A DNA stretch of 58,439 bases from an uncultured beta proteobacterium. Its GTDB lineage: Bacteria > Pseudomonadota > Gammaproteobacteria > Burkholderiales > Burkholderiaceae_C. Shown here piece by piece: positions 2,556 to 55,169 of this stretch. A program made the position numbers and the translations under genes. Position 1 is the first letter of the stretch, and each line of letters starts with the position of its first letter. The stretch lies in NCBI GenBank assembly GCA_903905735.1, contig CAIVHU010000047.1, positions 1 to 58,439 on the forward strand. Reading direction: 5' to 3'. Under the pieces are notes generated by a model, which was not told the origin of the DNA, made no database searches, and saw only the letters and a list, made by a program, of their open reading frames with translations.

Positions 2556-3633
2556 ATGCAGCTTTTCAAAGACCTCTCCCCCAGGGCCTTCACCGCCGGT
2601 TCCGTCGCTGATTCTCAAAAAGCCGGTGATGGTCGCCTGGAGCACGCCCGGTGCCGCGGTGCTGGCCACGGCCGGTGTGGCGGGTGGTTTCAACATGGCC
2701 GAGGCAGTCGGTGCGTTCATGGTGTGCGCGACGTTGATCACGCTGGTCGGGGTGACGGGCTGGTTTGAAGCGCGCCATGAACCGCTTGCCGATGGCGATT
2801 GCCTCCGGCCTGCTGGCGGGGGTGCTGGCACGGTTTGGCATGCAGGCGTTCATAGCGGCGCAAACCAATTTGACGCTGGTACTGATCATGCTGGCCACCT
2901 ATTGGGTGGGCAAGCGTTGGTTGGCGCGATATGCGGTGCCGTTGAAGTTGTTGATCGCTATTTGTTATGTAGCTGCTTCCGCAGATTTCACGGGGGCTAG
3001 CGTGCAATTTGGCTTGGTGATGCCGCTGTGGACCACGCCACAGTTCACCTGGAGTGCGGCCATCAGTCTGGCGTTGCCGCTGTTTGTGGTGACCATGGCC
3101 TCACAAAATCTGCCAGGGGTGGCAGCCATCGTGGCGGCCGGGTATGGCCGAACGGCAGACAAGCCGGGCATTCCGGTGTCGGGTATGGTGCTTTGACAGG
3201 TATAACCACCTTGCTGCTGGCACCCTTTGGTGCATTTGCGTTGAATTTCAGCGCCATCACGGCCGCCATCTGCATGGGCAGTGAGGCGCATCCGGACCCG
3301 GACAAGCGCTACACCGCGGCGGTGTCCTGTGGTGCGTTGTATATCCTGATTGGTCTGTTTGGCACCGCCATCACCGGCGCGCTCACGGCGTTCCCCAAAG
3401 AGCTGATCGCGGCGATTGCCGGGGTGGCGTTGCTGGGCACGATTGGCTCAGCCTTGAATGTGGCGATGCGCGACGAGTTTCACCGCGAGGCGGCGCTGAT
3501 CACTTTTCTGGTCACGTTAGGCGGCGTCGTGTTCGCGGGAGTTGGCTCGGCTCTTTGGGGGATGATTGTGGGTGCGCTGGCACTACTGATCCAAAGGGCG
3601 GGAAAATCGCGCTCTGACTTGCCGCCGCACTGA
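2556..3633 (+). pseudogene. benE: benE-like benzoate/H+ symporter, degraded
   Basis: Pieces of a BenE-family inner-membrane transporter are spread over different frames. It starts MQLFKDLSPRAFTAGSVA, then jumps in another frame to KKPVMVAWSTPGAAVLATAG, with several tens of residues of the usual N-terminal region missing. Near 2767 an apparent one-base insertion (TTTGAAGCGCGCC where TTTGAGCGCGCC is expected) moves the frame to RAMNRLPMAIASGLLAGVLA. Near 3188 a further shift after GIPVSGMVL leads to LTGITTLLLAPFGAFALNFS, which runs to the stop at 3633. A copy of the 36-bp dispersed repeat lies at 2970-3005. Three independent lesions make a real pseudogene more likely than one sequencing error. 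No functional transport is expected. Confidence 0.85.
2970..3005 (+). repeat. 36-bp dispersed repeat, copy 1
   Basis: Matches the pattern TAGCTGCTNCCGC, ten variable bases, AGGGCTGGAGGCC. This copy reads AGTAGCTG-type left arm (TGTAGCTGCTTCCGC) and GGGGCTAGCGTGC right arm. It lies inside the benE pseudogene. Confidence 0.7.
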
Positions 3634-3704
3634 CGTTCCCAACGCGCCGCCGCGTTGCCTTGTTTACCGGACCCATCCGGACCCCACAGAAAGTAATTGT
3701 TCCC

Positions 3705-4670
3705 ATGAAGCTGTTGTTTGTCGCTGACCCGCTCGAATCTTTCGAAATATACAAGGACACCACCTTTGCCATGATGCGCGAGGCACAACGGCGTGGGCAC
3801 AGCATCAGCGTCTGCGAGCCCAAGGACATCATGTGGCAGCGTGGCGCGCCTGTGACGGGCTTTGTGCGAGACATCACGCTCACCGGCCAAAAGCCCGACT
3901 GGTTCACTGCAGCGCAGCAAGCGCCGAACGAGCGCACCGCTGCTTTGAAAAATTTTGACGCCGTAGTGATGCGCAAGGATCCGCCGTTCGATTCGGAGTT
4001 TTTCTACGCCACACACCTGCTGGAGCAGGCCGAGCGTGAAGGCGCACGGGTCTTCAACAAACCCCGTGCGCTGCGTGATCACCCCGAAAAACTGGCGATT
4101 TTGGAATGGCCGCAGTTCATCGGCCCGACGCTGGTCACGCGTGACGCGCAGGACATCCGTCGCTTTCACGCCGAGCACCAGGACATCATTCTCAAGCCGC
4201 TGGATGGCATGGGCGGTTCAGGGATTTTCCGGGTCAAGGAAGACGGCCTGAACCTGGGCGTCATCATTGAAACCCTCAACAAGCACGGTGCAGAGACCGT
4301 GATGGTGCAGAAGTTCTTGCCCGCCATCGCTCAGGGTGACAAGCGGGTGCTGGTGATTGGCGGTCAGCCCGTCCCTTACAGCCTGGCGCGCATTCCACAA
4401 GGTGGCGAGGTGCGTGGCAATCTGGCCGCAGGTGGCAAGGGCGTGGCGCAGCCACTCACAGCTCGCGACCGCGAGATTGCCGAGGCGATTGGCCCGGTGC
4501 TGTTTGAGCGTGGGTTGCTATTGATCGGCCTGGATGTGATTGGCGAGCACCTCACCGAGATCAACGTCACCAGCCCGACCTGTTTTCAGGAGATCTTTGA
4601 TCAGACCGGGTTTGACGTGGCCGCCATGTTTGTGCAGGCACTGGAAGCGGCGCAGACCCGCTCGCATTGA
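3705..4670 (+). CDS. gshB: Glutathione synthetase
   Basis: A 321-residue ATP-grasp enzyme joining gamma-glutamylcysteine and glycine in the second step of glutathione synthesis. The N-terminal pre-ATP-grasp domain starts MKLLFVADPLESFEIYKDTT. The ATP-grasp region shows ILKPLDGMGGSGIFR and the C-terminal metal/ligand segment shows LTEINVTSPTCFQEI, both diagnostic of proteobacterial GshB. The start at 3705 was preferred over 3660 because MKLLFVADP is the family N-terminus. The last 70 bases overlap, antisense, the 3' end of the convergent amidotransferase gene. Confidence 0.96.
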   Translation: MKLLFVADPLESFEIYKDTTFAMMREAQRRGHSISVCEPKDIMWQRGAPVTGFVRDITLTGQKPDWFTAAQQAPNERTAALKNFDAVVMRKDPPFDSEFFYATHLLEQAEREGARVFNKPRALRDHPEKLAILEWPQFIGPTLVTRDAQDIRRFHAEHQDIILKPLDGMGGSGIFRVKEDGLNLGVIIETLNKHGAETVMVQKFLPAIAQGDKRVLVIGGQPVPYSLARIPQGGEVRGNLAAGGKGVAQPLTARDREIAEAIGPVLFERGLLLIGLDVIGEHLTEINVTSPTCFQEIFDQTGFDVAAMFVQALEAAQTRSH

Positions 4671-8321: not shown

Positions 8322-8420
8322 GGCAACGGGCCGATCAACGTGGATGATCGCTCGAGTGTATCGGGCTGCAAAGACCCCGCGACACACTCAGGCGTTATGG
8401 TCAGGGCCATATAAGAAATA

Positions 8421-8456
8421 TGCCACCAGCCCTTATTGATTATGGGCTAGCAGCTA
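8421..8456 (-). repeat. 36-bp dispersed repeat, copy 2
   Basis: On the minus strand: TAGCTGCTAGCCC, ten bases, AGGGCTGGTGGCA. It sits in the gap between glcB and the Cys-rich protein gene. Confidence 0.75.
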
Positions 8457-8486
8457 TATTATCAATAGTAATTCAAGTCGGAGCGA

Positions 8487-10739
8487 TCAGGCCGCAGCCT
8501 TCACCTTTTGCCGCCAGGCGTGCAACAGCGGCTCGGTATAGCCACTGGGCTGCGTCAGGCCCTTGAACACCAAGTCACACGCCGCTTGATACGCCATGGA
8601 CGTGTCAAAGTGGCCGGCCATCGGTTTGTAGAACGGGTCGCCCGCGTTTTGTGCGTCGACCACGGCAGCCATGCGCTCGAAGGTTTCTTTCACTTGGCGC
8701 AAGGTCACCACGCCGTGGTGCAGCCAGTTGGCCATGTGCTGGCTGCTGATGCGCAGCGTGGCGCGGTCTTCCATCAGGCCGATGTTGTGAATGTCGGGCA
8801 CCTTGGAGCAGCCCACGCCCTGATCGACCCAGCGCACCACGTAACCCAAGATGCCCTGGGCGTTGTTGTCCAGCTCCTGCTGTTTCTCGGCTGCGCTCCA
8901 GGTGGGCGTGGCGGTGACGGGGATGTGCAGCAGGCCATTGAGCAGCGCGTCGTGTTCGTGCTGCGGGTCGCGCTTGGCGTGGGTCTTTTCGATGTCTTTT
9001 TGCACGTCGCTGACCAGCACCTGGTGGTAGTGCAGCGCATGCAGGGTGGCACCGGTCGGGCTGGGCACCCAGGCGGTGTTGGCACCGGCTTTGGGGTGGG
9101 CGATTTTTTGCTCCAGCATGGCTTTCATCAGGTCAGGCATGGCCCACATGCCCTTGCCGATTTGCGCCTTGCCGCGCAGGCCACATTGCAGACCGACCAG
9201 CACGTTGTTGCGCTCGTAGGCGTGAATCCATGCGCTGGCTTTCATGTCGGCTTTGCGAACCATCGGGCCCGCTTGCATGGCGCTGTGCATCTCGTCGCCA
9301 GTGCGGTCCAGGAAGCCGGTGTTGATGAACGCGACGCGGCTGGCAGCGGCGGCAATGCAGGCCTTGAGATTGGTGCTGGTGCGGCGCTCTTCGTCCATGA
9401 TGCCGAGTTTGACGGTGCTGTCTGGCAGGCCCAGCATCTTCTCGACGCGGCCAAACAGCTCGCTGGCAAACGCCACCTCTGCCGGGCCGTGCATCTTGGG
9501 TTTGACGATGTAGACCGAACCCTTGCGCGAGTTGCGGATGGCGTCTTTTTTGGTCTTAGCCAGGTCATGCATGGCAATCGTCGTGGTGACCACGGCGTCC
9601 AGAATGCCTTCAGGAATCTCACGCACCACACCGGATTTGTCGGTGTAGAGGATGGCGGGGTTGGTCATCAGGTGGCCGACGTTGCGCACAAACATCAGGC
9701 TGCGGCCATGCAGACGGACCTTCTTTTTGCCGTCGGTAGCGGTGTAAAAACGATCTAGGTTCAGCCCGCGTGTGAAGGTTTTGTCGCCTTTGGCCACTTG
9801 CTCGGTCAGCGTGCCTTGCAGGATGCCGAGCCAGTTGCTGTAAGCCAGCACCTTGTCGTCAGCGTCCACGGCCGCGACCGAGTCTTCCAGGTCGAGGATG
9901 GTGGACAGGGCTGCTTCGACCACCAGGTCGGACACGCCAGCCGGATCGCTGGCGCCGATGGTGGTGCTGCGGTTGATGATCAGGTCCAGGTGCAGGCCGT
10001 TGTGTTCAAACAGAAGACTTGATGGCGTTTTGGCATCGCCCTGGTAGCCGACCAACTGGTCGTTATCGGCCAGGCTGGTGTTGCTGCCGTCAGCGAGTTT
10101 CACAGCCAGTTTGCCGCCCGCGACGCTGTAGCCCACGGAATCAATGTGCGAGCCCTTCTTCAAAGGGGCGCAGCGGTCCAGCACGTAGCGCGCGTATTCG
10201 ATGACTTTGGCACCGCGTTTGGGGTTGTAGCCGCCTTTTTTGCTGACCTTTTCGCAGCCTTTGGCTTCATCAATCACGTCGGTGCCGTACAGCGCGTCGT
10301 ACAGGCTGCCCCAGCGGGCGTTGGCGGCGTTCAGCGCGTAGCGGGCGTTCAGGATCGGCACCACCAGTTGCGGGCCGGCCTGTTTGGCCAGTTCGGCATC
10401 GACGTTGCTGGTGGTGATGCGGACCTTTTTCGGCGCCGGCACCAGGTAGCCGATACCCTCGAGAAACGCGCGGTAGTCGGCCATCTGCTGTGGTTTTGCA
10501 TGGTCTGCAGCGGTGATCGGGCCCGGATTGGCCTTGTGCCAGGCGTCCAGCTCGGTTTGCAGCCTGTCACGCTCGGCCAGCAGGGCGATGTTTCTGGGCG
10601 CCAAGTCAGCCACGATGGCGTCGAACCCCTTCCAGAACTTGGCGGGTGTCACTCCGGTGCCAGGCAGCACTTTGGATTCGATGAATTGGCACAAGTTGGA
10701 GGCCACTTGCAGGCGGTTTTTGGTGATGCGTTCGGTCAT
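8487..10739 (-). CDS. glcB: Malate synthase G
   Basis: A 750-residue enzyme that condenses glyoxylate with acetyl-CoA to malate. The family hallmarks are [53 protein letters not shown] (metal/glyoxylate region), [19 protein letters not shown], and [19 protein letters not shown], which carries the catalytic aspartate near the C-terminus. The length fits isoform G (about 720-750) and not isoform A. The ATG at 10739 ([16 protein letters not shown]) was chosen over an upstream one because family N-termini begin here. It is divergent from the CoA-transferase gene. Confidence 0.96.
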
Positions 10740-11012
10740 GATGGTGTCAATCAGGTTGATGGGGTCGGTTGGAAAAGTCAGATCTCGTGAGAGCGGCGCT
10801 TGGAGGCTGAGGGCGTTTTCGCCTTTGATGGTGCGCGGCGGCATAGGAGGGGCTGCTTTGGCACCATTTTAGTGAGGCCATGCAAAGTGATTGAGCACGC
10901 GCTCCATCGCGCACCTGTGACAAAAAGGCATGTAATCCCCCAGTTCGGTATCAGGCTGGGAAATAATAGGCATTTGATACCTGAATCGTTTCCTGAAGTT
11001 GATTGACGCACC

Positions 11013-12241: not shown

Positions 12242-13156
12242 ATGAGCAAACTCAAACAACTGGAAACCTTTGTCAACGTGGCAGCGCGGGGTGGCCTGAC
12301 CGCGGCGGCCAAGGTTGAGGGTGTGGCACCGGCCATCATCGGACGCAGGCTCGATGCCCTGGAGGCGCGACTGGGCGTCAAGCTGCTATTGCGCACCACC
12401 CGGCGCGTGACACTGACCCAGGAGGGCAGCGCGTTTCTGGAAGACTGCCAGCGTCTGCTGTCTGGCCTGGCCAGTGCCGAAGCCAGCGTGTCAGCCGGGG
12501 GGCTCAAACCCACCGGGCATCTGGCGCTGACGGCGCCGGCGGGTTTTGGCCGCTGCCACGTGGCCCCGCTGGTGCCACGATTTCGCGAACTGCACCCTGA
12601 AGTGACGATTGCCCTGAACCTGAGCGACCGTGTGGTTGATCTGGCAGCCGAGGGTTTTGACTGCGCAGTGCGGGTCGGTGAGATGCCTGACTCGTCGCTG
12701 GTGAGCGTGCGCCTGGCTGATAACCGCCGACTGTGCGTGGCGGCACCCGGCTACCTGCAGCGGTATGGCACGCCGCAAACCCCGCAAGACCTGGCACGCT
12801 TTGACTGTCTGGCGCTTTCCAGCGGTGCCTCGCAGACGCGCGGCTGGGCGTTTTCCCTGCCCCAGGGGGATGGCGTGGAGGTGGTGCATCTCAAACCCGG
12901 TGGCCCCTTGAGCTGTTCCGATGGTGAGGTGCTGTTCGACTGGTGCTTGGCCGGCTACGGAATCGCCTGGCGCAGCACCTGGGAGGTGCAGGCTGAAGTT
13001 GCAGCAGGGCAGCTGGTGCCTGTGCTGGAAGAGTTTGCCGCCCCGCCCAACGGGATTTATGCCGTGTTTGCGCAGCGCAAACATCTGCCACTGCGCCTGC
13101 GTTTGTGGATTGATTACCTCAAGCAGCAATTTGCGCAGCCGGAGTTTTTGGCATGA
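12242..13156 (+). CDS. LysR-family transcriptional regulator
   Basis: A 304-residue LysR-type regulator. The winged helix-turn-helix is at residues 1-60 (KLKQLETFVNVAARGGLTAA, then RLDALEARLGVKLLLRTTRR). A periplasmic-binding-like effector domain follows from about residue 90. It is likely to control the CoA-transferase just upstream. The effector is unknown. Its stop overlaps the start of the deacetylase gene (ATGA at 13153), so translation of the two may be coupled even though the functions look unrelated. Confidence 0.93.
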   Translation: MSKLKQLETFVNVAARGGLTAAAKVEGVAPAIIGRRLDALEARLGVKLLLRTTRRVTLTQEGSAFLEDCQRLLSGLASAEASVSAGGLKPTGHLALTAPAGFGRCHVAPLVPRFRELHPEVTIALNLSDRVVDLAAEGFDCAVRVGEMPDSSLVSVRLADNRRLCVAAPGYLQRYGTPQTPQDLARFDCLALSSGASQTRGWAFSLPQGDGVEVVHLKPGGPLSCSDGEVLFDWCLAGYGIAWRSTWEVQAEVAAGQLVPVLEEFAAPPNGIYAVFAQRKHLPLRLRLWIDYLKQQFAQPEFLA

Positions 13157-14013
13157 GCCCCTCGGAAGCCTTGTCGCCCGACCAGATCGCCAGCCAGCTT
13201 GCGGCCAAAGGCGTGATCATCTGCGCCGACGATTTTGCGGTGCACCACAGCGCCTCGGCCGGTATTGCCGAACTGGCGCGCCTGCACCGCATCAGCGCCG
13301 CCAGCGCCATGGTGCTGTCGCCGCATTGGGCGCAGGATGTGGCGTTGCTGCAAGACCTGCGTGGCCAGATCGACGTTGGCCTGCATCTGGACTGGACCAG
13401 CGACTTTGCCAAAGCGGCCGGTCATGGCTGGTCTTTGGGTGCGGCCATGCGCCGATCGGTTTTGGGTGGGTTCGACACGCGTCAGGCCGCCACGGTGATC
13501 GAACGGCAACTGGACCTGTTCGAGGCGAACTGGCACGCAGCACCAGACTATGTGGACGGTCACCAACATGTGCAGCAGTTCGCCGGAATTCGAGATGCTT
13601 TGGTCGCAGTGCTGGCGCGACGTTATGGCGCGTTGGCGGTCAAACCCTACTTGCGCGTCTCGCGTCCACCGCAGGGCACAGCCGACCTCAAAGGCCGGGT
13701 GATTGCCCGGATGGGTGCCAATGCTCTTGAAAAAATAGCTGCTACCGCAGGTTTCAAAAGGGCTGCAGCCCTTTTAGGCATACATAACTTTAGCGGCAGC
13801 CCAGCTGACTACGCGCGCCTGATGACGCGCTGGCTGGCACAAGCCCCGCCGGGTGCCATCATCATGTGTCACCCGGCGCAGGCGTGCGAACCGGGCGACG
13901 AGATTGGTGTGTCGCGGGTGCAGGAGTTTGCTTACCTGGCGGGGCCAGAGTTTGTCGCAGCTTTGGCCACGGCAGGGGTGGTGCCCGTGCGCGGACGGCA
14001 GGTTTTGTCCTGA
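13153..14013 (+). CDS. ChbG/HpnK (YdjC)-family carbohydrate deacetylase
   Basis: A 286-residue YdjC-fold protein. Motifs are GVIICADDFAVHHSASAGI, where the DD pair is the metal/base region, VGLHLDWTS, YVDGHQHVQQFAGI (metal-binding His pair) and IIMCHPAQA. Relatives deacetylate N-acetylated sugars on diacetylchitobiose, hopanoids, or undecaprenyl-phosphate sugars (NaxD, LgmC). The ArnT-like, GtrA and GT2 genes next to it favour a polyprenyl-sugar substrate. Residues about 195-207 (AATAGFKRAAAL) come from an in-frame copy of the 36-bp repeat. Confidence 0.88.
   Translation: MSPSEALSPDQIASQLAAKGVIICADDFAVHHSASAGIAELARLHRISAASAMVLSPHWAQDVALLQDLRGQIDVGLHLDWTSDFAKAAGHGWSLGAAMRRSVLGGFDTRQAATVIERQLDLFEANWHAAPDYVDGHQHVQQFAGIRDALVAVLARRYGALAVKPYLRVSRPPQGTADLKGRVIARMGANALEKIAATAGFKRAAALLGIHNFSGSPADYARLMTRWLAQAPPGAIIMCHPAQACEPGDEIGVSRVQEFAYLAGPEFVAALATAGVVPVRGRQVLS
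13736..13771 (+). repeat. 36-bp dispersed repeat, copy 3 (in frame, deacetylase gene)
   Basis: TAGCTGCTACCGC, ten bases, AGGGCTGCAGCCC. It lies wholly inside the deacetylase coding sequence and keeps the frame. Confidence 0.75.
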
Positions 14014-14174
14014 GCGGCCAAGGCATCAGGGGTGTGGACTGGGTATCGGTTGGGGGCGATTTCAAAAAGCGAAGCGTGTGAGCCCCCGGCCGGTACCCGG
14101 TTCACGCCCCGGCCCGATAGCCACAAACGGCTGCCCAACCACGAGCCGATTGCCTGCCGACCTAAAATCACCGG

Positions 14175-22562: not shown

Positions 22563-24161
22563 ATGAAACAAGGCCTGTCCCTACGCGTTTCGCAGCATCT
22601 GGCGCTCACGCCCCAGTTGCAGCAATCGATCAGGCTGCTGCAGTTGTCCACGCTGGAGCTTTCAAGCGAAGTTGATCAGATGCTGGACGACAACCCGTTT
22701 CTGGAGCGCAACGTGGAAGAGGCCGAACGCGAGTCGTTTGGCCTGGAGCAACTCGACACCCCGGTCAGTGCCTCTGACCGTGAAGCCGAATCTACTACAT
22801 ATTCAATAGCTGACTACCCAAGCGATACAAGGGCTAAGGTCGAAAATGAGGCGGAAGATTCAGGCCTCTCCAGTGACGATGGCCCGAATTGGGAAGGCGA
22901 CGGCAGTGTCAGCCTCGGCCCTGATGACAGCGAATGGGGCAGCGAGGCGCGCGCCAAAGGCAACAACCTCAGTGGCGACGACGAGTTGGATGCCACCGAG
23001 CTGGCGCGCAACCAGGAGTCGCTGCAAAGCTACCTGCACCGCCAGGCGCTGGCGCTGCGCCTGAGCGCGGAAGACAGCGCCGCACTGCGCTTTCTGATTG
23101 AGTCGCTGAACGACGACGGTTACCTGGAAGACCCGCTGGATGAACTGGCGCGCGGTCTCGCCGGGGACGACGATCCGGAGCAGTTGGAGCAACTGGTGCA
23201 CCATTTCACCGTGGCCCTGAGCTTGCTGCAAAGCCTGGAGCCTATCGGCGTGGGCGCGCGCGGCCTCGCCGAGTGCCTCACCTTGCAACTCAAGGCCCTG
23301 TTGGTATTGTCAGACACCGAGCTGGAGCTCGAACCGGAGGCGATCCGCGTCGCCCTGGCCATCTGCCGCCAGCCGATGGATTTGCTGGCGCGGCGCGACA
23401 TCAAACACCTGATGCCGCTGTGTGGTGCCAGTGATGCCGAGGTGCGCGCCGCCATCACCCTGATCGGTCGCCTGGAGCCCAAACCGGGGCGGCGTTTTGT
23501 CGACGTCGAACGCAATGTGGTGGTGCCCGACGTGCTGGTGGTCAAAGTTGGCAACGGTGGTGCCGCCAAATTTAACGTGCGGTTGAACCCCGAGGTGATG
23601 CCGCGCCTGCGGGTGCATGACATTTATGCCAACGCGCTCAAGGGTCACAAGACCGGTGGCAGCGAGGCGTCGAGCGCGCTGGCGCTGCAGCAGCGGCTAC
23701 AGGAGGCGCGCTGGTTCATCAAGAACATCCAGCAGCGCTTTGACACCATCCTGCGCGTGTCCACCGCGATTGTCGAGCGTCAAAAGAGCTTTTTTGTGCA
23801 CGGCGAACTCGCCATGCGCCCGCTGGTGCTGCGCGAAATTGCCGACGAACTGGGCCTGCACGAATCGACCATCAGCCGCGTCACCACCGCCAAATACATG
23901 GCCACGCCCTACGGCACGTTCGAGCTGAAGTACTTTTTTGGCTCCGGCCTGGGCACCGAGTCCGGCGGCAATGCCTCCAGCACCGCAGTGCGCGCGCTCA
24001 TCAAGCAGTTTGTGGCCGCCGAAAACCCCAAAAAGCCTTTGAGCGACAACCAGATCTCCGACATGCTCAAAGAGCAGGGCATCGAATGCGCCCGCCGAAC
24101 CGTGGCCAAATACCGTGAAGGTTTGCGTATTGCCCCTGCGTCGCTGCGCAAGGAGCTTTAG
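22563..24161 (+). CDS. rpoN: RNA polymerase sigma-54 factor
   Basis: A 532-residue sigma54. Region I is Gln/Leu-rich (SLRVSQHLALTPQLQQSIRL), followed by an acidic region II, the core-binding domain, the HTH (ADELGLHESTISRVTTAKYM) and the RpoN box (ARRTVAKYREGL). It recognises -24/-12 promoters such as those proposed here upstream of dmpK (35155) and nifB (57478). Residues about 82-93 (ADYPSDTRAKVE) derive from an in-frame 36-bp repeat within region II, which tolerates length change. The start MKQGLSLRVS at 22563 matches the family. Confidence 0.96.
   Translation: MKQGLSLRVSQHLALTPQLQQSIRLLQLSTLELSSEVDQMLDDNPFLERNVEEAERESFGLEQLDTPVSASDREAESTTYSIADYPSDTRAKVENEAEDSGLSSDDGPNWEGDGSVSLGPDDSEWGSEARAKGNNLSGDDELDATELARNQESLQSYLHRQALALRLSAEDSAALRFLIESLNDDGYLEDPLDELARGLAGDDDPEQLEQLVHHFTVALSLLQSLEPIGVGARGLAECLTLQLKALLVLSDTELELEPEAIRVALAICRQPMDLLARRDIKHLMPLCGASDAEVRAAITLIGRLEPKPGRRFVDVERNVVVPDVLVVKVGNGGAAKFNVRLNPEVMPRLRVHDIYANALKGHKTGGSEASSALALQQRLQEARWFIKNIQQRFDTILRVSTAIVERQKSFFVHGELAMRPLVLREIADELGLHESTISRVTTAKYMATPYGTFELKYFFGSGLGTESGGNASSTAVRALIKQFVAAENPKKPLSDNQISDMLKEQGIECARRTVAKYREGLRIAPASLRKEL
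22807..22842 (+). repeat. 36-bp dispersed repeat, copy 4 (in frame, rpoN)
   Basis: TAGCTGACTACCC, ten bases, AGGGCTAAGGTCG. A diverged copy inside rpoN region II. Confidence 0.65.
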
Positions 24162-24245: not shown

Positions 24246-25679
24246 ATGAACCAACTCCAACTGTTCCTCCCCTGCGCTGCCGGCGTGGAAGACTACCTGG
24301 CCCCCGAGGTACTGCGCATCACCGGGCTGCCGCCGGGCTGCATCACCAAACAACGCGGCGGCGTGGCGGTGCGCACGTCGTTTGCCCACGCGATGCTGCT
24401 CAACCTGTACAGTCGCCTGGCGCAGCGGGTGCTGGTGCTGCTGAGTTACACCGAATACCGCAGTGAGCAGGACCTGTATCGCGCCGCCAGTGAGGTGGCT
24501 TGGGAGCGCTGGTTCACCCCGCGTGAATCGATCAAGGTCGAGATCACCGCCCAGCACAGCCCGCTCAACAGCCTGAACTTTGCCGCGCTCAAGATCAAGG
24601 ACGCGGTGTGTGATCGCTTTCGCACGGTGGCGGGCGGCGTGCGCCCCGACGTCAACACCCAGTGGCCCGACGTGCGCCTCTACGCCCACCTGACCACCGA
24701 CAGTTGCTCGTTGTACATCGACACTTCGGGCGAGCCGCTGTTCAAGCGCGGCTGGCGCGAGGACAAGGGCGATGCACCGCTGAAAGAAACGCTGGCCGCC
24801 GCGATGATCGCCGCCAGTGGCTGGCTCGACGGCGAGGGCGACTTGCAGCCGCTGTATGACCCCTGCTGCGGCAGCGGCACGATCCTGATCGAAGCCGCGC
24901 AAATGGCCTGCAACCTGCCCGCGGGTGGCCAGCGCCGATTTGCCTTCGAGAAATACCTGCCTTTTCGCAAGGCCGATTGGGATGCTATGAAGAGTGAAGC
25001 TGTAGACGCAGTATCCATACCGGACGCAGGCCAAAAACCCATTATTTTTGGCAGTGACGTGGCGCACCGCATGGTTGATTTTGCGCAGCGCAACGCCGAG
25101 CGCGCGGGCGTGGCCCAGGTCATCGAATTCCGCGGCGGCGACGCGCTGCAACGCATGCCGCCGATGGACGTGAGTCAGACCGGTGGCGGCGTGATGATCC
25201 TGAACCCACCGTATGGTGAGCGTATCGAGGTGGCGGGCGTGGCGCGTGCGGGTCGAATGGAGCGTGCGCCACAACGAGGAAAAGTGGCCTCCAGCGCTTA
25301 TGCAGAAAGCGGTAGCAGCTACGAAGAAGATAGCGTTATCGCCGATCAGGGCAGCATGCAGCAGGGCCGGTTTGGCGCGCGCGAACTGCCGCAGACGGAC
25401 AACGGAGGCGACTTCTTCAGCCAGCTCGCCACCCACTGGAAGAAAAACTACGCGGGCTGGACCGCCTGGATGCTGACGCCTGATCTCAAGCTGCCCGGCA
25501 AGATGCGCCTGAAAGAATCGCGCCGCGTGCCGATGTGGAACGGCCCCATCGAATGTCGCCTGTTCCGCTTTGACATGGTGGCTGGCTCGGCGCGTGAACG
25601 TGGCCCCAAGCCTGAAGGGCAAGGGGCGGCCGGATCAGCAGGGGAAAACGGGGTCAGATCACCGGACGCGCAGCGGTAG
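24246..25679 (+). CDS. rlmL: RlmL-like 23S rRNA/THUMP-domain methyltransferase
   Basis: A 477-residue protein. An N-terminal THUMP domain (about residues 45-155) precedes a Rossmann methyltransferase with YDPCCGSGTILIEAAQMA and the catalytic NPPYGER motif. This is the RlmL/RlmK-N family making m2G in 23S rRNA. It lacks the second (RlmK) domain of E. coli RlmKL. It is longer than single-domain homologues because of two in-frame 36-bp repeat copies (residues about 251-262 and 347-359) and a tail (GENGVRSPDAQR) read from a REP-like hairpin holding the stop codon. Confidence 0.88.
   Translation: MNQLQLFLPCAAGVEDYLAPEVLRITGLPPGCITKQRGGVAVRTSFAHAMLLNLYSRLAQRVLVLLSYTEYRSEQDLYRAASEVAWERWFTPRESIKVEITAQHSPLNSLNFAALKIKDAVCDRFRTVAGGVRPDVNTQWPDVRLYAHLTTDSCSLYIDTSGEPLFKRGWREDKGDAPLKETLAAAMIAASGWLDGEGDLQPLYDPCCGSGTILIEAAQMACNLPAGGQRRFAFEKYLPFRKADWDAMKSEAVDAVSIPDAGQKPIIFGSDVAHRMVDFAQRNAERAGVAQVIEFRGGDALQRMPPMDVSQTGGGVMILNPPYGERIEVAGVARAGRMERAPQRGKVASSAYAESGSSYEEDSVIADQGSMQQGRFGARELPQTDNGGDFFSQLATHWKKNYAGWTAWMLTPDLKLPGKMRLKESRRVPMWNGPIECRLFRFDMVAGSARERGPKPEGQGAAGSAGENGVRSPDAQR
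24997..25032 (+). repeat. 36-bp dispersed repeat, copy 5 (in frame, rlmL)
   Basis: AAGCTGTAGACGC, ten bases, CCGGACGCAGGCC: a diverged copy inside the methyltransferase domain. Confidence 0.55.
25286..25321 (-). repeat. 36-bp dispersed repeat, copy 6 (in frame, rlmL)
   Basis: On the minus strand: TAGCTGCTACCGC, ten bases, AGCGCTGGAGGCC, almost the consensus. It encodes part of an insert just after the NPPYGER motif. Confidence 0.8.
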
Positions 25680-25732: not shown

Positions 25733-26164
25733 GTGGCGCAACCCAGCCCTAGCAATGCCACCCCCAGCCTGGTCCTCGACACCAACATCGTCCTGGACCT
25801 GTTTGTCTTCCAAGACCCGTCTACACCCGCCTTGCAAGCCGCTATGGTGAAGGGCCAGCTGCAATGGATTGCCACCGCGCCCATGCGCGACGAGTTGCAG
25901 CGGGTGCTCACCTACCCGCAATTGGTCAAAAGCATGCACCACCACTGCATCCTGCCCGATCAGGTGCTGGCCGCGTTTGATGCCCAAGCCTACATCGTGC
26001 CCGTGGCACCCAAGGCCAGTGTCACCTGCAAAGACCCGGACGACCAGAAGTTCATCGACCTGGCCGTCACCCACCGGGCGTCCTTGTTGAGCAAGGACAA
26101 AGCCGTTCTTTGTATGAAAAAAAGACTTCTAGCCCTTGACGCTATTGTGCTTTCAGCTATATAA
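25733..26164 (+). CDS. PIN-domain protein (putative toxin-type RNase)
   Basis: A 143-residue product if started at the GTG at 25733; an alternative GTG at 25679 lies inside the REP-like hairpin and is less likely. The PIN fold is shown by SLVLDTNIVLDLFVF (first Asp), the MRDELQRVL acidic site, and KDPDDQKFIDLAVTHRASLL followed by SKDKAV (last acidic cluster). It resembles COG1569-type PIN proteins, some of which are VapC-like toxins. No antitoxin gene lies beside it. The last residues (LLALDAIVLSAI) are encoded by a 36-bp repeat copy, so the natural C-terminus may have been replaced. Confidence 0.75.
   Translation: MAQPSPSNATPSLVLDTNIVLDLFVFQDPSTPALQAAMVKGQLQWIATAPMRDELQRVLTYPQLVKSMHHHCILPDQVLAAFDAQAYIVPVAPKASVTCKDPDDQKFIDLAVTHRASLLSKDKAVLCMKKRLLALDAIVLSAI
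26124..26159 (-). repeat. 36-bp dispersed repeat, copy 7 (3' end of PIN gene)
   Basis: On the minus strand: TAGCTGAAAGCAC, ten bases, AGGGCTAGAAGTC. It supplies the final codons before the PIN gene stop at 26162-26164. Confidence 0.65.
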
Positions 26165-26256
26165 GCTATAGCGAATTGTGACTGCAGAATATCTGTTTTG
26201 ACGCCCAACCAGACACCGGGGACAATACCGCCTGTTTTTTCCTTTCAATTTGCACC

Positions 26257-27063: not shown

Positions 27064-27736
27064 CTACCACGGCAGCGCTTCGCCCTCGTAACTGAAAAAC
27101 CCGCCGGAGTCTTCCGGCTTCAAGGCGGCGATGGTCGCCAGTAACTCTGCGGCGGCTGTCTCGGGCTGGCGCACCGTCAGCCCGGTTTTGGCAAACGGTT
27201 GCGACAGGGCGCTGCGCACCGTGCCCGGATGCAGTGCCACGCAGATGGCCTGCGGCGCGCGTCGGCGCAGCTCGATCGCCGCCGTGTGCACCAGTTGGTT
27301 GAGCGCCGCCTTGCTGGCGCGGTAGCTGTACCAGCCGCCGAGTCGGTTGTCGCCAATGCTGCCCACTTTGGCGGAGAGCGTGGCAAACACCGATGGACCC
27401 TGGCGCGGCAGCAGCGGTAAAAAGTGTTTCATCAGCAGCGCCGGGCCGATGGCGTTGATGGCAAAGGCCTGCGCCATCTGCGCGGCATCGAGCTGCGCCC
27501 AGCTTTTTTCCGGCTGGTGGGTGGGCGTGTGCAGCATGCCGGTGGCATCGATGATCAGGTTCAAAACCCCGCCTTGTTCGGTCAGCAGGGTTTTGACATG
27601 CTGCGCCGCAGCGGCGCGACAGGCCCAGCGCCGTCTCGAAGCGGGGGTCGTTTTGCAACTGGGCCAGCAGCGCCGCGCCAATGCCGCCACTGGCACCAAT
27701 GATCAATGAAAATGGCCTCAAGCCCCTATCTTGCAT
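27064..27736 (-). pseudogene. Short-chain dehydrogenase/reductase, frameshifted
   Basis: The reading frame from the ATG at 27736 gives the Rossmann start SLIIGASGGIGAALLAQLQN and RFETALGLSRR, then becomes meaningless. A second frame from about 27620 continues with QHVKTLLTEQGGVLNLIIDA, FAINAIGPALLMKHFLP, the catalytic Tyr/Lys in WYSYRASKAALNQLV, and VALHPGTVRSALSQPF to the stop at 27064. A frameshift, with probable loss of the second beta strand and following helix, separates the halves. It resembles the C-factor/CsgA-like SDR group. A single sequencing error would not explain the missing residues. Confidence 0.75.
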
Positions 27737-27738
27737 GC

Positions 27739-28710
27739 CTAAGCCACTATGAAAAAGTCAAGCAGCTCGGCGGCCGTGTCCGCTGGCAACTCTTCGGGAA
27801 TGAAATGCCCGGCGGGCAGCGCCAATCCTGAAACCTGCCCGGAACACTGCGCCTGCCAGAGGGTCAGCGGGTTGAATAAGCGGTGCACCACACCGCGCTC
27901 GCCCCACAGCACCCGCATGTTGCAGGCGATTTTTTGGCCCGCCGTGCGGCTGGCGCGGTCGTGCTCCAGGTCAATGCTGGCGCTGGCGCGGTAGTCCTCG
28001 CACACCGCGTGGATGGTTTCGGGTTTGAGGAAGCTGCGCTCGTATTCAGCCAGTGCGGCAGGCTCGATGTGCGCCATGCCGCCCGTGCCCCAGCCGCCCA
28101 GTTTGTGGTGCAGGTAAGCCAAGGCATTGCCGCCAATCATCTGCTCGGGCAGCGGCGCAGGCTGGATCAGGTGGAACCAGTGGTAATAGGCATTGGCAAA
28201 CAGGAAATAGGGGTTGGTGACCGCAACCGACGCCGCCGGGAGTGCCTGCGCCCACGCCTCGGGGCTGTGCCCCCAGTTGCCGTCATACATGTCCAGCGTG
28301 GGCGCGATGTCGATCAGGCACAGCTTGGTCAAGCGCGTCGGATGGTCCAGCGCCAGCCGGTGCGCCACGCGGCCACCCCGGTCATGGCCACACACCCCAA
28401 ACTGCGCCACCCCCAGTCTGTCCATGATCAGAATCATGTCCTGGGCCATGCTGCGCTTGCTATAGCTGCTATGGTTATCAGAGTCCGCTGGCTTGCCCGA
28501 ATCGCCATAACCCCGAAGGTCGGGCAGCACAAGGTAAAAGTCATTCACCAGCTTTTGCGCCACCCGGTGCCACATCACGTGCGTCTGCGGAAAACCGTGC
28601 AACAGCAACACAACAGGCCGGTGAGCTACTGCGCCGTGCGAGACGCGGGCAAACAGCGTGGCGCCGTTCACCTCAAAGTGGTGTGTCTCGAAATCTTCAA
28701 ACCAGTTCAT
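27739..28710 (-). CDS. Alpha/beta hydrolase, haloacetate dehalogenase-like
   Basis: A 323-residue alpha/beta hydrolase beginning MNWFEDFETHHFEVNGATLF. Motifs: VVLLLHGFPQTHVMWHRVA (oxyanion HGFPQ), LPDLRGYGDS, the nucleophile elbow GHDRGGRVAHRLALDHP with Asp as nucleophile and Arg at the two halide/carboxylate-binding positions, and the C-terminal His in LPAGHFIPEELP. These match fluoroacetate/haloacetate dehalogenases (EC 3.8.1.3), so that activity is plausible but unproven. A 36-bp repeat copy lies in frame at about residues 71-82. The downstream SDR is broken and the upstream neighbour is an NTF2-like gene. Confidence 0.82.
   Translation of the reverse strand: MNWFEDFETHHFEVNGATLFARVSHGAVAHRPVVLLLHGFPQTHVMWHRVAQKLVNDFYLVLPDLRGYGDSGKPADSDNHSSYSKRSMAQDMILIMDRLGVAQFGVCGHDRGGRVAHRLALDHPTRLTKLCLIDIAPTLDMYDGNWGHSPEAWAQALPAASVAVTNPYFLFANAYYHWFHLIQPAPLPEQMIGGNALAYLHHKLGGWGTGGMAHIEPAALAEYERSFLKPETIHAVCEDYRASASIDLEHDRASRTAGQKIACNMRVLWGERGVVHRLFNPLTLWQAQCSGQVSGLALPAGHFIPEELPADTAAELLDFFIVA
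28463..28498 (+). repeat. 36-bp dispersed repeat, copy 8 (in frame, hydrolase gene)
   Basis: TAGCTGCTATGGT, ten bases, CGCTGGCTTGCC-type right arm: a diverged copy antisense to the hydrolase gene, which stays open through it. Confidence 0.6.
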
Positions 28711-29229: not shown

Positions 29230-30495
29230 TTATGCCAGCCACTGTAACAACTGCCGGGTGACATCCGGGCTGCTGAGCAATTGCAGGTGGTGGGTGCGGT
29301 ACAGGACCAGCTGGTGCGCCGGGGCAAACACCAGGCAACGCGCCGGCTTGTCGTGCTGGCCAAGTGCGCTGGGTAGCGGCACCAGCCCGTCACCCAGCAG
29401 GCGGTCGGCCAGCGTCCCACGTTGGGCCGCTGCGGTGGCGGCCACGGCAAAACAGGCGATGCCCTCGGGTAGCGGCACGTGCTGGCGGCTGTCAGGCTGG
29501 CGGCGAAAACGGTCGTGGCCCTGCCAGTCCACATCCAGCAGGTGGCCGTAGCGCAGGTCGGTGACCCCGGCGCTGCGCAACTGGCCCAGCTTGGCAAACG
29601 GGCGGCTGTAGGGCGTGCTGCCCAGCAGTTCATCAACCCAGTTGCCCGCGCGCTCCAGCGGCGCGCCGTGATGCGGTGTGCCCAGAAAGACGATGTTTTT
29701 GACCAGCGCGGGCCAACTCAGCCCCACCTGCTGGGCGTAAAACAGCGCGCTGCGTATCAGCAGCCCACCCATGCTGTGCGCCAGCACGGTGATCTGAGTC
29801 AGTGCGGTGGGCCAGCTTTGCACCAGGTCTTGCAGTTGCCGGGCCAGTTCGTGGCCGTTTTGAGAGACGTGCAGCCCGCTGTTGTAGCGCAGATAGATGG
29901 GCGTGTACCCCAGTTCATGGGCCAGGGTGGTGGCGTGGTTGACGCTTTGGCTTGGGTCCCCGATCGTCCATTGCAGGTCGTTCATGCACAGGCCGTGGAT
30001 CACGAGCAGCAGTTTGGGGCCAGCGCCAGGTAGCTGAACATTAAGAGGTAAATTGGCCTCCAGCCCTTTGGATATAAAAGCTGGCAGCTCTTGATAATGT
30101 AGCGTCATGGGCAGCGCCAGCGGGTTGGCGCTGGCTTGCAGACGGTCGCCCATCACGCCGTTGAGGGCGGCGATGACAGCGGTGCGTTCTGGCGACTCGT
30201 CGCCTTGCCCTTCCAGGCGCTGCAGCGTCGGCTCCAGCCGGGTCAGGGCGGCCTCCAGCCCACGACCAATCAGCCCGGTCACGCCGTGGATGCTTTGGTA
30301 AATCAACCCGGTCAATCCGGTGGTGTGTGCGGGTGTGGCCCCGTTGGGTGCGCCTAGCGTGCGCCACACCGACTGGTGCACACCCTCGCTCATGCCGGTG
30401 ATGGCGTGGGTGGCCTGCGTGGCCAGCTGCGCGGCGGCACGCAGGTCAGACGCGCTCAGGTGGCGGGTGGGCTTTTTGGGGGGTGATGCAGTCAT
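29230..30495 (-). CDS. Lipase-like alpha/beta hydrolase
   Basis: A 421-residue protein with a helical N-terminal region (residues about 1-110), then an alpha/beta hydrolase core: LLLVIHGLCMNDLQWTIG, the nucleophile elbow VLAHSMGGLLIRSALFYAQ (Ser), IVFLGTPHHGAPLERAGN and a C-terminal LLGDGLVPLPSAL with Asp. It resembles PGAP1/triacylglycerol-lipase-type hydrolases. No signal peptide is evident. Residues about 136-147 come from an in-frame 36-bp repeat (30055-30090). The start is at 30495 (MTASPPKKPTRH); an ATG at 30525 is possible. Confidence 0.8.
   Translation of the reverse strand: MTASPPKKPTRHLSASDLRAAAQLATQATHAITGMSEGVHQSVWRTLGAPNGATPAHTTGLTGLIYQSIHGVTGLIGRGLEAALTRLEPTLQRLEGQGDESPERTAVIAALNGVMGDRLQASANPLALPMTLHYQELPAFISKGLEANLPLNVQLPGAGPKLLLVIHGLCMNDLQWTIGDPSQSVNHATTLAHELGYTPIYLRYNSGLHVSQNGHELARQLQDLVQSWPTALTQITVLAHSMGGLLIRSALFYAQQVGLSWPALVKNIVFLGTPHHGAPLERAGNWVDELLGSTPYSRPFAKLGQLRSAGVTDLRYGHLLDVDWQGHDRFRRQPDSRQHVPLPEGIACFAVAATAAAQRGTLADRLLGDGLVPLPSALGQHDKPARCLVFAPAHQLVLYRTHHLQLLSSPDVTRQLLQWLA
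30055..30090 (-). repeat. 36-bp dispersed repeat, copy 9 (in frame, lipase gene)
   Basis: On the minus strand: GAGCTGCCAGCTT, ten bases, AGGGCTGGAGGCC, with an identical right arm to the consensus. Confidence 0.75.
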
Positions 30496-38769: not shown

Positions 38770-38816
38770 AGCCAGCAGCTCCCGGCCAGTCCGGGCGCTG
38801 GATTTAATTACTTTGA

Positions 38817-38852
38817 TAGCTACTCACCCAATAGAAAGAAGGGCTAGAGCCC
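38817..38852 (+). repeat. 36-bp dispersed repeat, copy 10 (dmpO-dmpP gap)
   Basis: TAGCTACTCACCC, ten bases, AGGGCTAGAGCCC. It fills much of the 120-base gap between dmpO and dmpP, so it would be transcribed within the operon. Confidence 0.75.
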
Positions 38853-38889
38853 GATTTCTTATAAATATTCACATTGTCACAACCCACCC

Positions 38890-45189: not shown

Positions 45190-45216
45190 TCGATATTCCA
45201 TTTACTACGAATTAAA

Positions 45217-45252
45217 TAGCGGCATATGCAGATTAAACAAGGGCTAAAGACC
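45217..45252 (+). repeat. 36-bp dispersed repeat, copy 11 (dmpD-dmpE gap)
   Basis: TAGCGGCATATGC, ten bases, AGGGCTAAAGACC: a diverged copy in the 107-base gap. Confidence 0.65.
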
Positions 45253-45296
45253 TATAACACCACTATTTGTTACTTCAAAACAGGACATAACCCCCA

Positions 45297-49795: not shown

Positions 49796-49846
49796 CATCG
49801 CGGTGCCAGGTTGTCGGGTGGCTGTAGAAAAGTCTATAGCCAGAAT

Positions 49847-49882
49847 CGACTCTAGCCCTTTATAATAAAGGGCTGTAAGCTA
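49847..49882. terminator. Bidirectional hairpin between phenol and nif operons, made from 36-bp repeat copy 12
   Basis: AGCCCTTTA (49854-49862), loop TAA, TAAAGGGCT (49866-49874) is a perfect nine-pair stem. On the minus strand the same bases read TAGCTTACAGCCC, ten bases, AGGGCTAGAGTCG, a copy of the dispersed repeat. It sits at the meeting point of the convergent dmp and nif operons and directly abuts the stop codon of the ferredoxin gene. Confidence 0.65.
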
Positions 49883-50176
49883 CTAAAGGTGTAGCAATTC
49901 AACCGTCACTGGTTCCTCGCCCAGAATCGCCTGGCAAGCCAGACGCGAGTTGGAGCTGACACCCACAATGCCGTCGAGCTTGTCGTTTTCCACGCGCTGG
50001 ATTTTCGACAGGCTCTTGCGCCCCGCCGGCACGGTGACGTGGCACGCTTCGCAACGGGCTTCACCGCCACATTTGCTGGTGATGGCTTCGCCTGCGTCGA
50101 GCAGGGCTTTGAGCAAGGTGGTGCCGGCGGCAGCTTCGTAAGTCTTGCCAGAGGGGAGAACGGTCAGTGTGGTCAT
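49883..50176 (-). CDS. 2Fe-2S ferredoxin of the nif operon
   Basis: A 97-residue plant-type ferredoxin with ligands in SKCGGEARCEACHVTVPAG and a distal Cys in SRLACQAI. It begins MTTLTVLPSGKTYEAAAGTT. It is last in the nif accessory operon, so it may supply electrons for nitrogenase or for cofactor assembly. It is unrelated to the dmpQ ferredoxin in detail. An upstream ATG at 50233 is unlikely because the extra residues resemble nothing. Confidence 0.88.
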   Translation of the reverse strand: MTTLTVLPSGKTYEAAAGTTLLKALLDAGEAITSKCGGEARCEACHVTVPAGRKSLSKIQRVENDKLDGIVGVSSNSRLACQAILGEEPVTVELLHL

Positions 50177-50247
50177 GGTTATCAAGCGCATCAGTGCGTA
50201 GGTTAAAAAAAAGCAGGGTTCAATAGGCGTCACTCAGCCAGGGCGGG

Positions 50248-51075: not shown

Positions 51076-51091
51076 GTGGGTTCCTTTGAGG

Positions 51092-53125: not shown

Positions 53126-53415
53126 GCTGGCTCCGGTGTCTCGGGCAGCAGTCCCAGCGGCGCGGGTACCAGCTCAATTTCAAGGCAGCCAACCACGCAG
53201 TCGGCAAACTGCACCAGATAGACGGGCTCGTTCAAGTCTGGCGCATGGCCAATGTTGACGATCTCGCCCACCGAGCCGCGCGCTGCCAGCAGTGCATCGG
53301 GTTCGCGCTCGGGGTGGCTGCCGTCGTTGATCAGATCGTCCAGCGCTATCACGCGCTGGCCCCAGGCGTAGGCGGGTGCGCGGGGCTCGATACCGGGCAG
53401 GGCTTGAGTGCTCAT
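53122..53415 (-). CDS. nifZ: NifZ-domain protein, second copy
   Basis: A 97-residue protein with the NifZ SH3-like beta pattern: YAWGQRVIALDDLINDGSHP, LLAARGSVGEIVNIGHAPDL, NEPVYLVQFADCVVGCLEIE, LVPAP. It follows the first nifZ-like gene with a four-base overlap, and the two are only distantly alike, so they are not a recent duplication. NifZ takes part in maturing the P-cluster of the MoFe protein. Confidence 0.8.
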   Translation of the reverse strand: MSTQALPGIEPRAPAYAWGQRVIALDDLINDGSHPEREPDALLAARGSVGEIVNIGHAPDLNEPVYLVQFADCVVGCLEIELVPAPLGLLPETPEPA

Positions 53416-53774: not shown

Positions 53775-54609
53775 GGGCGACTCCTATGGGGGTGATGGAG
53801 GCGGACAGACGCGCTTGCACGACCACGCGCACTTCCGGTTCCGGGTCGTCACGCAGGGTGTTCAGCACGGCGGCGTCGGCGCGTTGGGCCACGTCCCAGC
53901 GTACCCGCCAGTCCACATCACGCGCCAGGCAGGACAGCAGCGGCACTGGCAACCGCTCGGCCACGATGCGCCGGACTTCCGGCTCAGCATCGTCTGTCAT
54001 CCGCAGCAGCGCTGGCATGGTCAGGCGCTGCGCCACGCGCTTGCGCACCGCGCGATCCGGGTCGTTGGCCATGGTGGGCAAGATGGCCAGTGGCAGGCGC
54101 AGGGCAACCAGCTCGCGCACCCCATAGTCCGGGTCATTTTTGAGGCTGGCCAGCTCGGCAGGGGTCAGCCGCTGCGCCACGCGGATGCGCACCTCACGGT
54201 GCGGGTCGGAAGCCAATCGAGCGAGCTGCGTCACGGGCAAGCGCAGCGCCACTTGCAGCCGCACCGTTTCATCAGGGTCAGTCACCAAGGCATTGAGCCG
54301 AAACACGCTCACATACCGCGCCGCAATGGCCCGCACCTCAAAATAGGGGTGCGCGGTCTGCGCATCCGCCAAATCGGTGTGCCATCGGAAAAACCGGTCA
54401 ATCCGGCGGGCGTAGATGTCTTGCAAACATGCGTAACCAGGCTCACAACCCTGCTTGTCTGGCAACCCGCGCAAGGGTGCATGCTCGCAAGTCGCGCAGT
54501 CGATGGCACCGCCTTGCCAATGTTGCGGTGCAATGTCGTCTTGAGGCGCGCGCACGCCACTGGCACCTGATGAGCGTCGTACCTTTGGCGATGTGGCGGT
54601 GTGGCTCAT
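53767..54609 (-). CDS. Leucine-rich repeat variant (LRV) protein with N-terminal Fe-S motif
   Basis: A 280-residue protein. Residues 36-65 hold a cysteine cluster (IDCATCEHAPLRG, then KQGCEPGYACLQD) for a 4Fe-4S cluster. Residues about 90-270 are nine or so tandem 24-residue alpha/3-10 repeats of the type DPDxxVRxxVAxRLP (DPDETVRLQVALRLP, DPHREVRIRVAQRLT, DPDYGVRELVALRLP, DPDRAVRKRVAQRLT, DDAEPEVRRIVAERLP). This is the architecture of the Azotobacter vinelandii LRV protein encoded in its nif region. The biochemical role is unknown. Confidence 0.88.
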   Translation of the reverse strand: MSHTATSPKVRRSSGASGVRAPQDDIAPQHWQGGAIDCATCEHAPLRGLPDKQGCEPGYACLQDIYARRIDRFFRWHTDLADAQTAHPYFEVRAIAARYVSVFRLNALVTDPDETVRLQVALRLPVTQLARLASDPHREVRIRVAQRLTPAELASLKNDPDYGVRELVALRLPLAILPTMANDPDRAVRKRVAQRLTMPALLRMTDDAEPEVRRIVAERLPVPLLSCLARDVDWRVRWDVAQRADAAVLNTLRDDPEPEVRVVVQARLSASITPIGVAHG

Positions 54610-55169
54610 GCGCTTGCGCCGCCCCAGCCGCGCACCGGGTAATTTGCTGGTGCGTCGGTGGGGTGGCCGTGTTGGTGGCGGTTGAGTACGTGCAACAGCA
54701 GCGCTCCGCCCACATGGTCTTGCGGGTCCAGGCGGCGCAGCTCACCCAGCATCAGCCGGGCTTCATCCATGTCGTCCAGGCGCATGTTGAGGTAGGCCAG
54801 GCCTTTGAGCGTGAACAGGTAGAAGCGCACCGCAGGATCGCTGCGGGTGGCATCTTCGCCCGGAGGTTCATCGCCAAAGTTCGGCCCCAGGGCCGTGCGC
54901 GCAATAGCTAGGGCATCTTCGCCGGCAGCCCTTGCCAGCGGTAGATCGTGACTATAAAAATAGTAGCGATACAGCGCAATCAGCGGGCCCGGGTGACGCG
55001 GTGCGGCGGCGCGTGCCTGGGCCAGCAAGGGCAAGGCCTGCTGTGGCAGGTGGTTCAAGCGCCCCGCTTCTTTGATCAAGGCCTCAACCTGCGGGCTCAA
55101 GCCTCCGCCGATGACGCCGTCGGCAAAGGCCGCGAGGTCATTGGCAAACCGAAGGCCATCCGCATGCAT
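54606..55169 (-). CDS. TPR-like protein of the nif operon
   Basis: A 187-residue helical protein with TPR-type segments: LPQQALPLLAQARAAAPRHP, GPLIALYRYYFYSHDLPLAR, YLFTLKGLAYLNMRLDDMDE, ARLMLGELRRLDPQDHVG. It likely serves as a protein-interaction scaffold during nitrogenase maturation. It overlaps the LRV gene by four bases. An in-frame 36-bp repeat copy (54920-54954) lies about residues 72-83, between the first and second helical pairs. I do not know a named homologue. Confidence 0.75.
   Translation of the reverse strand: MHADGLRFANDLAAFADGVIGGGLSPQVEALIKEAGRLNHLPQQALPLLAQARAAAPRHPGPLIALYRYYFYSHDLPLARAAGEDALAIARTALGPNFGDEPPGEDATRSDPAVRFYLFTLKGLAYLNMRLDDMDEARLMLGELRRLDPQDHVGGALLLHVLNRHQHGHPTDAPANYPVRGWGGASA
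54920..54954 (-). repeat. Dispersed repeat, copy 13 (in frame, TPR gene)
   Basis: On the minus strand: TAGTCACGATCTA, nine bases, AGGGCTGCCGGCG. A diverged 35-base copy inside the TPR gene. Confidence 0.5.

Follow-up and report, generated by a model that had tools for sequence, protein, structure and literature searches.

The window analyzed here comprises positions 1 to 58,439 of contig CAIVHU010000047.1 (assembly GCA_903905735.1) from an uncultured beta proteobacterium. Its genes include rpoN, rlmL, malate synthase, a YdjC-like gene and a lipase/esterase, and among and within them lie copies of a short dispersed DNA element, the subject of this analysis. A preliminary description of the window reported a 36-base unit at 13 positions, nine of them within coding regions. 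We built a starting profile from ten window copies and iterated it with nhmmer at an E-value of 0.01, which recovers 11 copies in the window (Table 1). Ten of the 13 reported positions hold up (2970, 8421, 13736, 22807, 25286, 26124, 30055, 38817, 45217 and 49847). The iterated profile finds no copy at 24997, 28463 or 54920 at this threshold, and 24997 sits in a stretch of rlmL that aligns without a break in many relatives. The eleventh copy, at 27710-27755(-), is new and weak (19.3 bits). The count of nine coding copies was too high: five lie inside genes or an open reading frame (ORF), four of these well inside Pfam-recognised genes and one inside ORF 2765-3196, while three, at 26121, 27710 and 49847, overlap gene 3′ ends and three, at 8417, 38808 and 45205, are intergenic. 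The reported length was likewise too short. Conservation spans about 66 bp, of which the 36-mer is the middle part; the 36-base pattern itself, with at most three mismatches, matches the window only at 13736 and 25286 (0 matches in 100 shuffles). Gene status in the window comes from our own hexamer-based gene caller together with Pfam; the caller is imperfect and makes few calls between 4670 and 5666.

Table 1. Copies of the dispersed element in the window. Genomes of relatives are designated by G numbers; G..C and C..G give the bases at columns 24 and 38 of the element.
Location of copy	Position	Strand	Score (bits)	Remarks
Inside ORF 2765-3196 (benE of the preliminary description, not a Pfam assignment)	2953..3023	+	24.0	Equal length in G004 and G070, undetected there by the profile
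Intergenic, downstream of malate synthase gene 8487-10844(-)	8403..8473	-	39.7	Gene assigned by Pfam
Inside YdjC-like gene 13153-14013(+)	13719..13789	+	33.7	PF04794; common to G061 and, as G..C type, G022
Inside rpoN 22563-24161(+), between activator-interacting and core-binding domains	22790..22860	+	25.8	Gene assigned by Pfam; ungapped in relatives without a detectable copy
Inside rlmL 24246-25679(+)	25268..25338	-	31.9	72 bases missing in G009 and G022; G..C here, C..G in G004, G023 and G070
3′ end of PIN-domain gene 25733-26164(+)	26106..26176	-	22.4	PF13470
3′ end of alpha/beta hydrolase gene 27739-28710(-)	27696..27766	-	19.3	Weak copy; gene assigned by Pfam
Inside lipase/esterase gene 29230-30495(-)	30037..30107	-	34.3	Gene assigned by Pfam; common to G004, G023 and G070
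Intergenic	38800..38870	+	27.3	Common to G022; G009 104 bases shorter
Intergenic	45200..45270	+	23.4	Common to G009, there of G..C type
3′ end of 2Fe-2S gene 49883-50233(-)	49829..49899	-	29.8	PF00111

The element is abundant across the genome to which the window belongs (G000). The first profile gave at least 150 matches over the whole genome, every one with an E-value below 1e-5. Further counts for G000 come from a sample comprising the window and 400 kb of other contigs (458,039 of 5,261,163 bases), in which 98 raw matches reduce to 88 distinct copies. This density of about 190/Mb extrapolates to about 1000 copies per genome. Neither a third-order Markov control of about equal size nor a similar length of reversed real sequence contained a match; the repeat, dispersed as first described, is far above chance. 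Rfam at gathering thresholds has no match in the window.

The conserved stretch runs from about column -4 to column +66 and is built around an imperfect inverted-repeat core, with an information content of 54.5 bits in total. The two inverted half-sites read about ATAGCTGCYWGCSCTT and AAGSGCTAGAGGCCNATTT, separated by 7 variable bases and bordered by AT-rich ends. The core as a whole reads TTGCTAT..ATTT.ATAGCTGCYWGCSCTT, about 7 variable bases, AAGGGCTAGAGGCCNATTT and then an AT-rich end. Columns 12-15 are ATAG in most copies, with G as the first base in 20%. Core copies in G000 average 44% GC (range 35-58%) in a sample that is itself 60% GC. Individual copies are diverse: mean identity to the consensus is 68%, the median pairwise identity among the 88 copies is 56%, and no pair exceeds 87%. 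Linkage between columns, measured on 160 copies, is nearly all local, with long-range linkage in just two of the 36 strongest pairs (26-61 and 13-49). We rejected a division into subfamilies on the ground that the linkage lies nearly all between neighboring columns.

The most telling property of the element, not foreseen in the preliminary description, is selection on its motif. We compared substitution rates in one genome pair, G004 and G070, using 48 placements of G004 copies and 49 of G070 copies with length differences of at most 20 bases; partners undetected by the profile (3 and 4, respectively) were kept, and columns were ranked from G000 copies alone. High-information columns differ at 48/1055 (G004) and 54/1078 (G070) positions, or 4.5-5.0%, middle columns at 158/1387 and 177/1420, and low-information columns at 104/816 and 118/832, or 12.7-14.2%. 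The roughly threefold contrast between high- and low-information columns is highly significant (Fisher's test, 2e-10 and 5e-12), and remains so in non-genic copies alone. Consensus bases at high-information columns are changed in 16/887 and 33/923 cases, below the 7% expected even if the score-based choice of copies had hidden one whole branch. Fourfold degenerate sites of the two genomes differ at 11015/77074 positions (14.3%), with rates of 34% for A, 27% for T, 11% for C and 10% for G. Relative to a base-matched fourfold expectation, high-information columns change at 0.21-0.23 and low-information columns at 0.56-0.63 of the rate. The flanks of the element differ at 588/8370 and 626/8555 positions (7.0-7.3%). 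In this genome pair, then, the key letters of the element are under column-specific purifying selection.

A second line of evidence concerns columns 24 and 38, which face each other in the dyad. In a set of 58 copies drawn from four other genera, G occupies column 24 without exception, and C occupies column 38 in 43. G000 is mixed (GG in 50 of the 88 copies, CG in 31, others in 7), and in G004 the CG state dominates (61 of 72, with GG in 8 and others in 3). Pooled samples give G..C in 5/7 copies of G022 and 9/18 of G009, and C..G in 13/16 of G023 and 73/96 of G070. These differences are found at orthologous copies: at 5 of the 25 orthologous sites with at least one recognised relative, one genome is G..C where another is C..G. 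Comparison of column 24 between G000 and the G023/G004/G070 clade covers 22 sites. Twelve have G in G000, and eight of these have C in the clade; eight have C in G000, and all eight keep it. A comparable one-way shift is seen at column 18 (8 G to A). Some of the copies that switched have kept the private bases that distinguish them (15/15 at C133:34053, and 10/16 and 8/13 elsewhere), which fits point mutation under selection.

Copies occur both between genes and inside them. By the same gene caller, 33 of the 88 G000 copies are intergenic, 18 lie on gene 3′ ends, 5 on 5′ ends and 32 inside genes, compared with random expectations of 7.5%, 3.9%, 4.2% and 79%, respectively. The 56 copies that are not inside genes comprise 36 in tandem, 16 in convergent and 4 in divergent settings, against 129, 34 and 49 such intergenic regions. 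The genic copies are split 16:16 by orientation and 22 of the 32 use the two most often stop-free frames; the preliminary description was correct that they are read through in frame in both orientations. The genic share in relatives is 15/72 in G004 and 16/80 in G070. We found no replichore strand bias in the complete G009 genome (86 of 150 scored copies, null 85.6; ori and ter were not located), and a replication-oriented signal was rejected on this basis.

The element occurs in many genera of the family. With one model (R1), 106 matches or more (138 scored) are found in 12 of the 23 same-genus relatives and 0-10 in the other 11; these genomes, G001-G023, thus form two groups, with nothing scored between 10 and 106 matches. 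The same model matches 0/16 genomes from other families of the order. A second model (R2), applied to the whole family with stricter filters and 16 scored per genome, matches 101/299 genomes and 57/141 genera. In 100 kb from each of four other genera we count 12 to 19 copies (120-190/Mb) with the same consensus. Most of the closest rlmL matches (89-92%) carry the label Rhodoferax, in keeping with the preliminary description, which had associated this kind of repeat with the Comamonadaceae. The closest of all (92%) is in L188, titled Parasulfuritortus sp. MAG; since Rhodoferax supplies the next closest matches, the record may have been binned or named wrongly. Searches of mobile DNA, each with one query and limited sensitivity, gave no exact pattern match in viral contigs, no match to a consensus-like copy in phage records, and a single match in plasmid records (Diaphorobacter NZ_CP049911.1, 107820-107874, inside cobN).

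The preliminary description had proposed that clean indels would reveal insertion. At rlmL, carriers have 72 bases more than G009 and G022, a multiple of three, and insertion there is plausible. In a survey of 80 named rlmL loci, the region could be extracted from 47, nine of which have a detectable copy in addition to the window. The rpoN and benE ORF sites are of equal length in relatives without a detectable copy, and at neither do the alignments demonstrate insertion. Further length differences are 46 bases at C128:26130 relative to G009 and 47 bases at one G070/G004 site relative to G000 and G023. Together with the high information content, such differences point to an origin by insertion. 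Alignments of empty sites are too diverged to place the element ends, as would be needed to recognise the terminal inverted repeats and target-site duplications of a miniature inverted-repeat transposable element. No dedicated transposase turned up, as first noted; PF01797 was the one family searched. It matches in 23/23 same-genus relatives, carriers and non-carriers alike. A copy lies within about 500 bp of 5/11 PF01797 loci from carriers, each on one side and two of them weak, and near 0/4 loci from genomes with few or no copies. As neither co-occurrence nor flanking copies on both sides support it, we rejected mobilization by a REP-associated tyrosine transposase (RAYT; REP, repetitive extragenic palindromic).

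The mobility raised in the preliminary description is not seen at present. G004 and G070 share 93.4% identity. There are 72 copies in 634 kb of G004, and 51 can be placed in G070, 48 of them shared and 3 undetected at sites of the same length; the remainder comprise 13 without a flank match, 6 one-sided, 1 split and 1 at an edge. Of 80 G070 copies, 55 can be placed in G004, with 11 one-sided, 9 without a match, 3 split and 2 at an edge. None of the 51 and 55 placeable copies faces a clean empty site. As a separate observation, contig 2 of G070 carries, near L145-L146, an operon resembling a type I restriction-modification system (by eye) with element copies between its genes; two gene-sized segments of this cluster are missing in G004.

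We tentatively favor the view that this is a family-wide dispersed element similar to REP elements or Rickettsia palindromic elements (RPEs), which now serves as the binding site of a putative dimeric DNA-binding protein. Copies would have spread long ago by insertion, as REP elements and RPEs do, and those in genes would have survived where frame and position allowed. They would at present be recognised by a conserved protein with a genome-wide role, perhaps in chromosome organization or at transcript ends. A shift in its specificity may then have drawn the sites along through point mutation. Present recognition by a trans-acting factor is suggested by the constraint within the element, the lack of new copies and the dyad-symmetric changes at orthologous copies. 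That both half-sites change symmetrically suggests a dimer that recognises GCGCTT or GCCCTT, and the frequency of G..G speaks against a strict hairpin. A more specific version is possible, and we hold it with greater reserve: one dimeric protein would serve about a thousand sites in many genera, one Rhodoferax lineage would have seen its half-site preference change from GCGCTT to GCCCTT, and orthologous sites would have followed by parallel point mutation in place, some of them inside proteins (in rlmL with a change in the encoded residue), with the window genome caught mid-switch. If so, former insertions have turned into a genome-wide functional system.

Several observations weigh against this interpretation. 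No protein has been identified, and the 11 of 23 same-genus relatives with 0-10 matches indicate that the site is dispensable. Four G-state sites, all genic and low-scoring, have not switched, and one switched copy keeps its private bases at 3/15 positions only. Intergenic DNA outside the element diverges by just 6.7% (2489/37266) between G004 and G070. By this yardstick high-information columns are only modestly slower, and low-information columns evolve at twice the rate, which would be compatible with conversion or hypermutability. Strong as the contrast is within the element, that with average intergenic DNA is small, and in genic copies alone the internal contrast is marginal (p 0.02 and 0.06).

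Among the alternatives, the one that survives best, although we regard it as unlikely, is a selfish palindromic element (RPE-like, REP-like or a miniature transposon) that spread in waves of insertion, some of them in frame within genes, and is now decaying without function, so that lineage differences reflect different source copies. It accounts for an information content that exceeds chance origin, for the differing lengths of carriers and non-carriers (by 72 bases at rlmL, and by 47 and 46 bases elsewhere), for the two-frame bias of genic copies and for the patchy presence within the genus. Uniform decay, however, predicts equal rates in all columns, and the rates differ. Moreover, lineage states change at orthologous copies, no two of the 88 copies are more than 87% identical, and no clean empty site appears at 93% identity.

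Gene conversion among copies could keep the consensus and spread variants without any function, and would explain both a coordinated change across a lineage and low-information columns at twice the average intergenic rate, as replacement by other copies would give. It is a possible cause where few private bases are kept (3/15), but the 15/15 kept at C133:34053 speak against it. Low-information columns equal the fourfold rate without exceeding it, a median pairwise identity of 56% makes the copies a poor substrate for homologous exchange, and column linkage is nearly all local. We consider conversion improbable as the general explanation.

An RNA or single-strand hairpin acting at transcript ends, in stability or termination, seems more doubtful still. 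The excess on gene 3′ ends (18/88 against 3.9% at random), the depletion of divergent regions and the complementary change of facing columns (G..C versus C..G) speak in its favor. Nonetheless, RNAalifold predicts no pair from 57 copies, folding lies only slightly below that of shuffles (z of -0.93 and -0.78; random segments, -0.14), the mismatched G..G is the commonest state in G000, and 32 of the 88 copies lie inside genes in both orientations.

Some larger indels between G004 and G070 end at element copies, which raises the question of a recombination site for gain and loss of gene-sized segments. Among 26 indels that are 300 bp or longer, seven have a breakpoint no more than 15 bp from a copy (3.3 expected, p 0.03), and two are bordered at each end by copies in the same orientation at distances of up to 100 bp (0.14 expected, p 0.012). 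In some cases the long allele has a copy at either end and the short allele has one. When the tolerance is widened to 100 bp, however, single ends near copies are not significantly in excess (8 versus 5.1, p 0.11), at 15 bp no indel has copies at both ends, and conserved copies in variable intergenic regions would give such block ends anyway; we judge this reading very unlikely. Least credible is a sequence that molecular drive maintains as a self-DNA uptake signal in natural transformation. This would suit the many copies on both strands without replichore bias, their presence both between genes and in frame within them, and the few or no phage and plasmid matches (one query). It does not suit rlmL, where the signs are of insertion and not of growth by mutation, and known uptake sequences are much shorter and carry less information than the element.

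Numerous constrained sites across a chromosome are familiar from the FtsK-orienting polar sequences (KOPS), matS and the DNA uptake and uptake signal sequences (DUS/USS), all of them far shorter; at 54.5 bits and with no replichore orientation bias, the element is unlike these. As described in PMC10969869 and PMC3733652, RPEs are dispersed and palindromic, occur within protein genes, where they are read in frame, and also in intergenic positions, are about 150 bp long and encode a conserved peptide. By description, the element likewise places a palindromic unit in frame inside genes but differs in its length of about 66 bp, its use of several frames, its column-specific constraint and its coordinated dyad changes. 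REP elements associated with RAYTs (GTAG and CGTC families) occur, according to PMC3733652, in many copies that are mostly intergenic, at unidirectional and convergent gene ends, with some in genes. The element resembles them in its high copy number and mainly extragenic position (56/88) but has no conserved GTAG or CGTC tag, GTAG being present in about a fifth of copies. The betaproteobacterial repeat element (BRE) family of Bordetella and Comamonadaceae, reported also in Rhodoferax and Polaromonas, comprises 40-90 bp repeats that are mostly intergenic, with some within coding sequences; those of Bordetella average 69% GC and form tandem arrays (PMC3110155). The two share a betaproteobacterial setting, a mostly intergenic position and some copies entirely within genes, and as far as that description goes the element is set apart by its mean GC of 44%, not being a GC-rich unit of 75-91 bp. 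We found no published description of the element in the literature searched, which consisted mostly of papers open without subscription and included PMC3733652, PMC10969869, PMC3110155 and PMC2755013; a search with the motif string returned a single unrelated result on a human enzyme.

Short dispersed repeats are usually taken as decaying selfish DNA. Here, comparison of genomes reveals constrained letters, freely changing spacers and half-sites that change in concert, with some copies inside proteins such as sigma-54. The element provides a defined DNA probe for finding the factor that recognises it. It also offers a natural experiment on the response of a very large number of sites to altered recognition.

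Other repeats were encountered in these genomes. Positions 14027-14132 of the window hold a different, intergenic dispersed repeat, with matches of 84-89% at several places in relatives and one more copy (85%) in the 400-kb G000 sample. A repeat of about 115 bp at L053:8635-8759 is likewise dispersed, with many copies of 72-86% in G023. Finally, a repeat of about 50 bp at L048:10494-10556 has many 86-94% copies in G023, including several inverted pairs about 200-300 bp apart that resemble the ends of small transposons.

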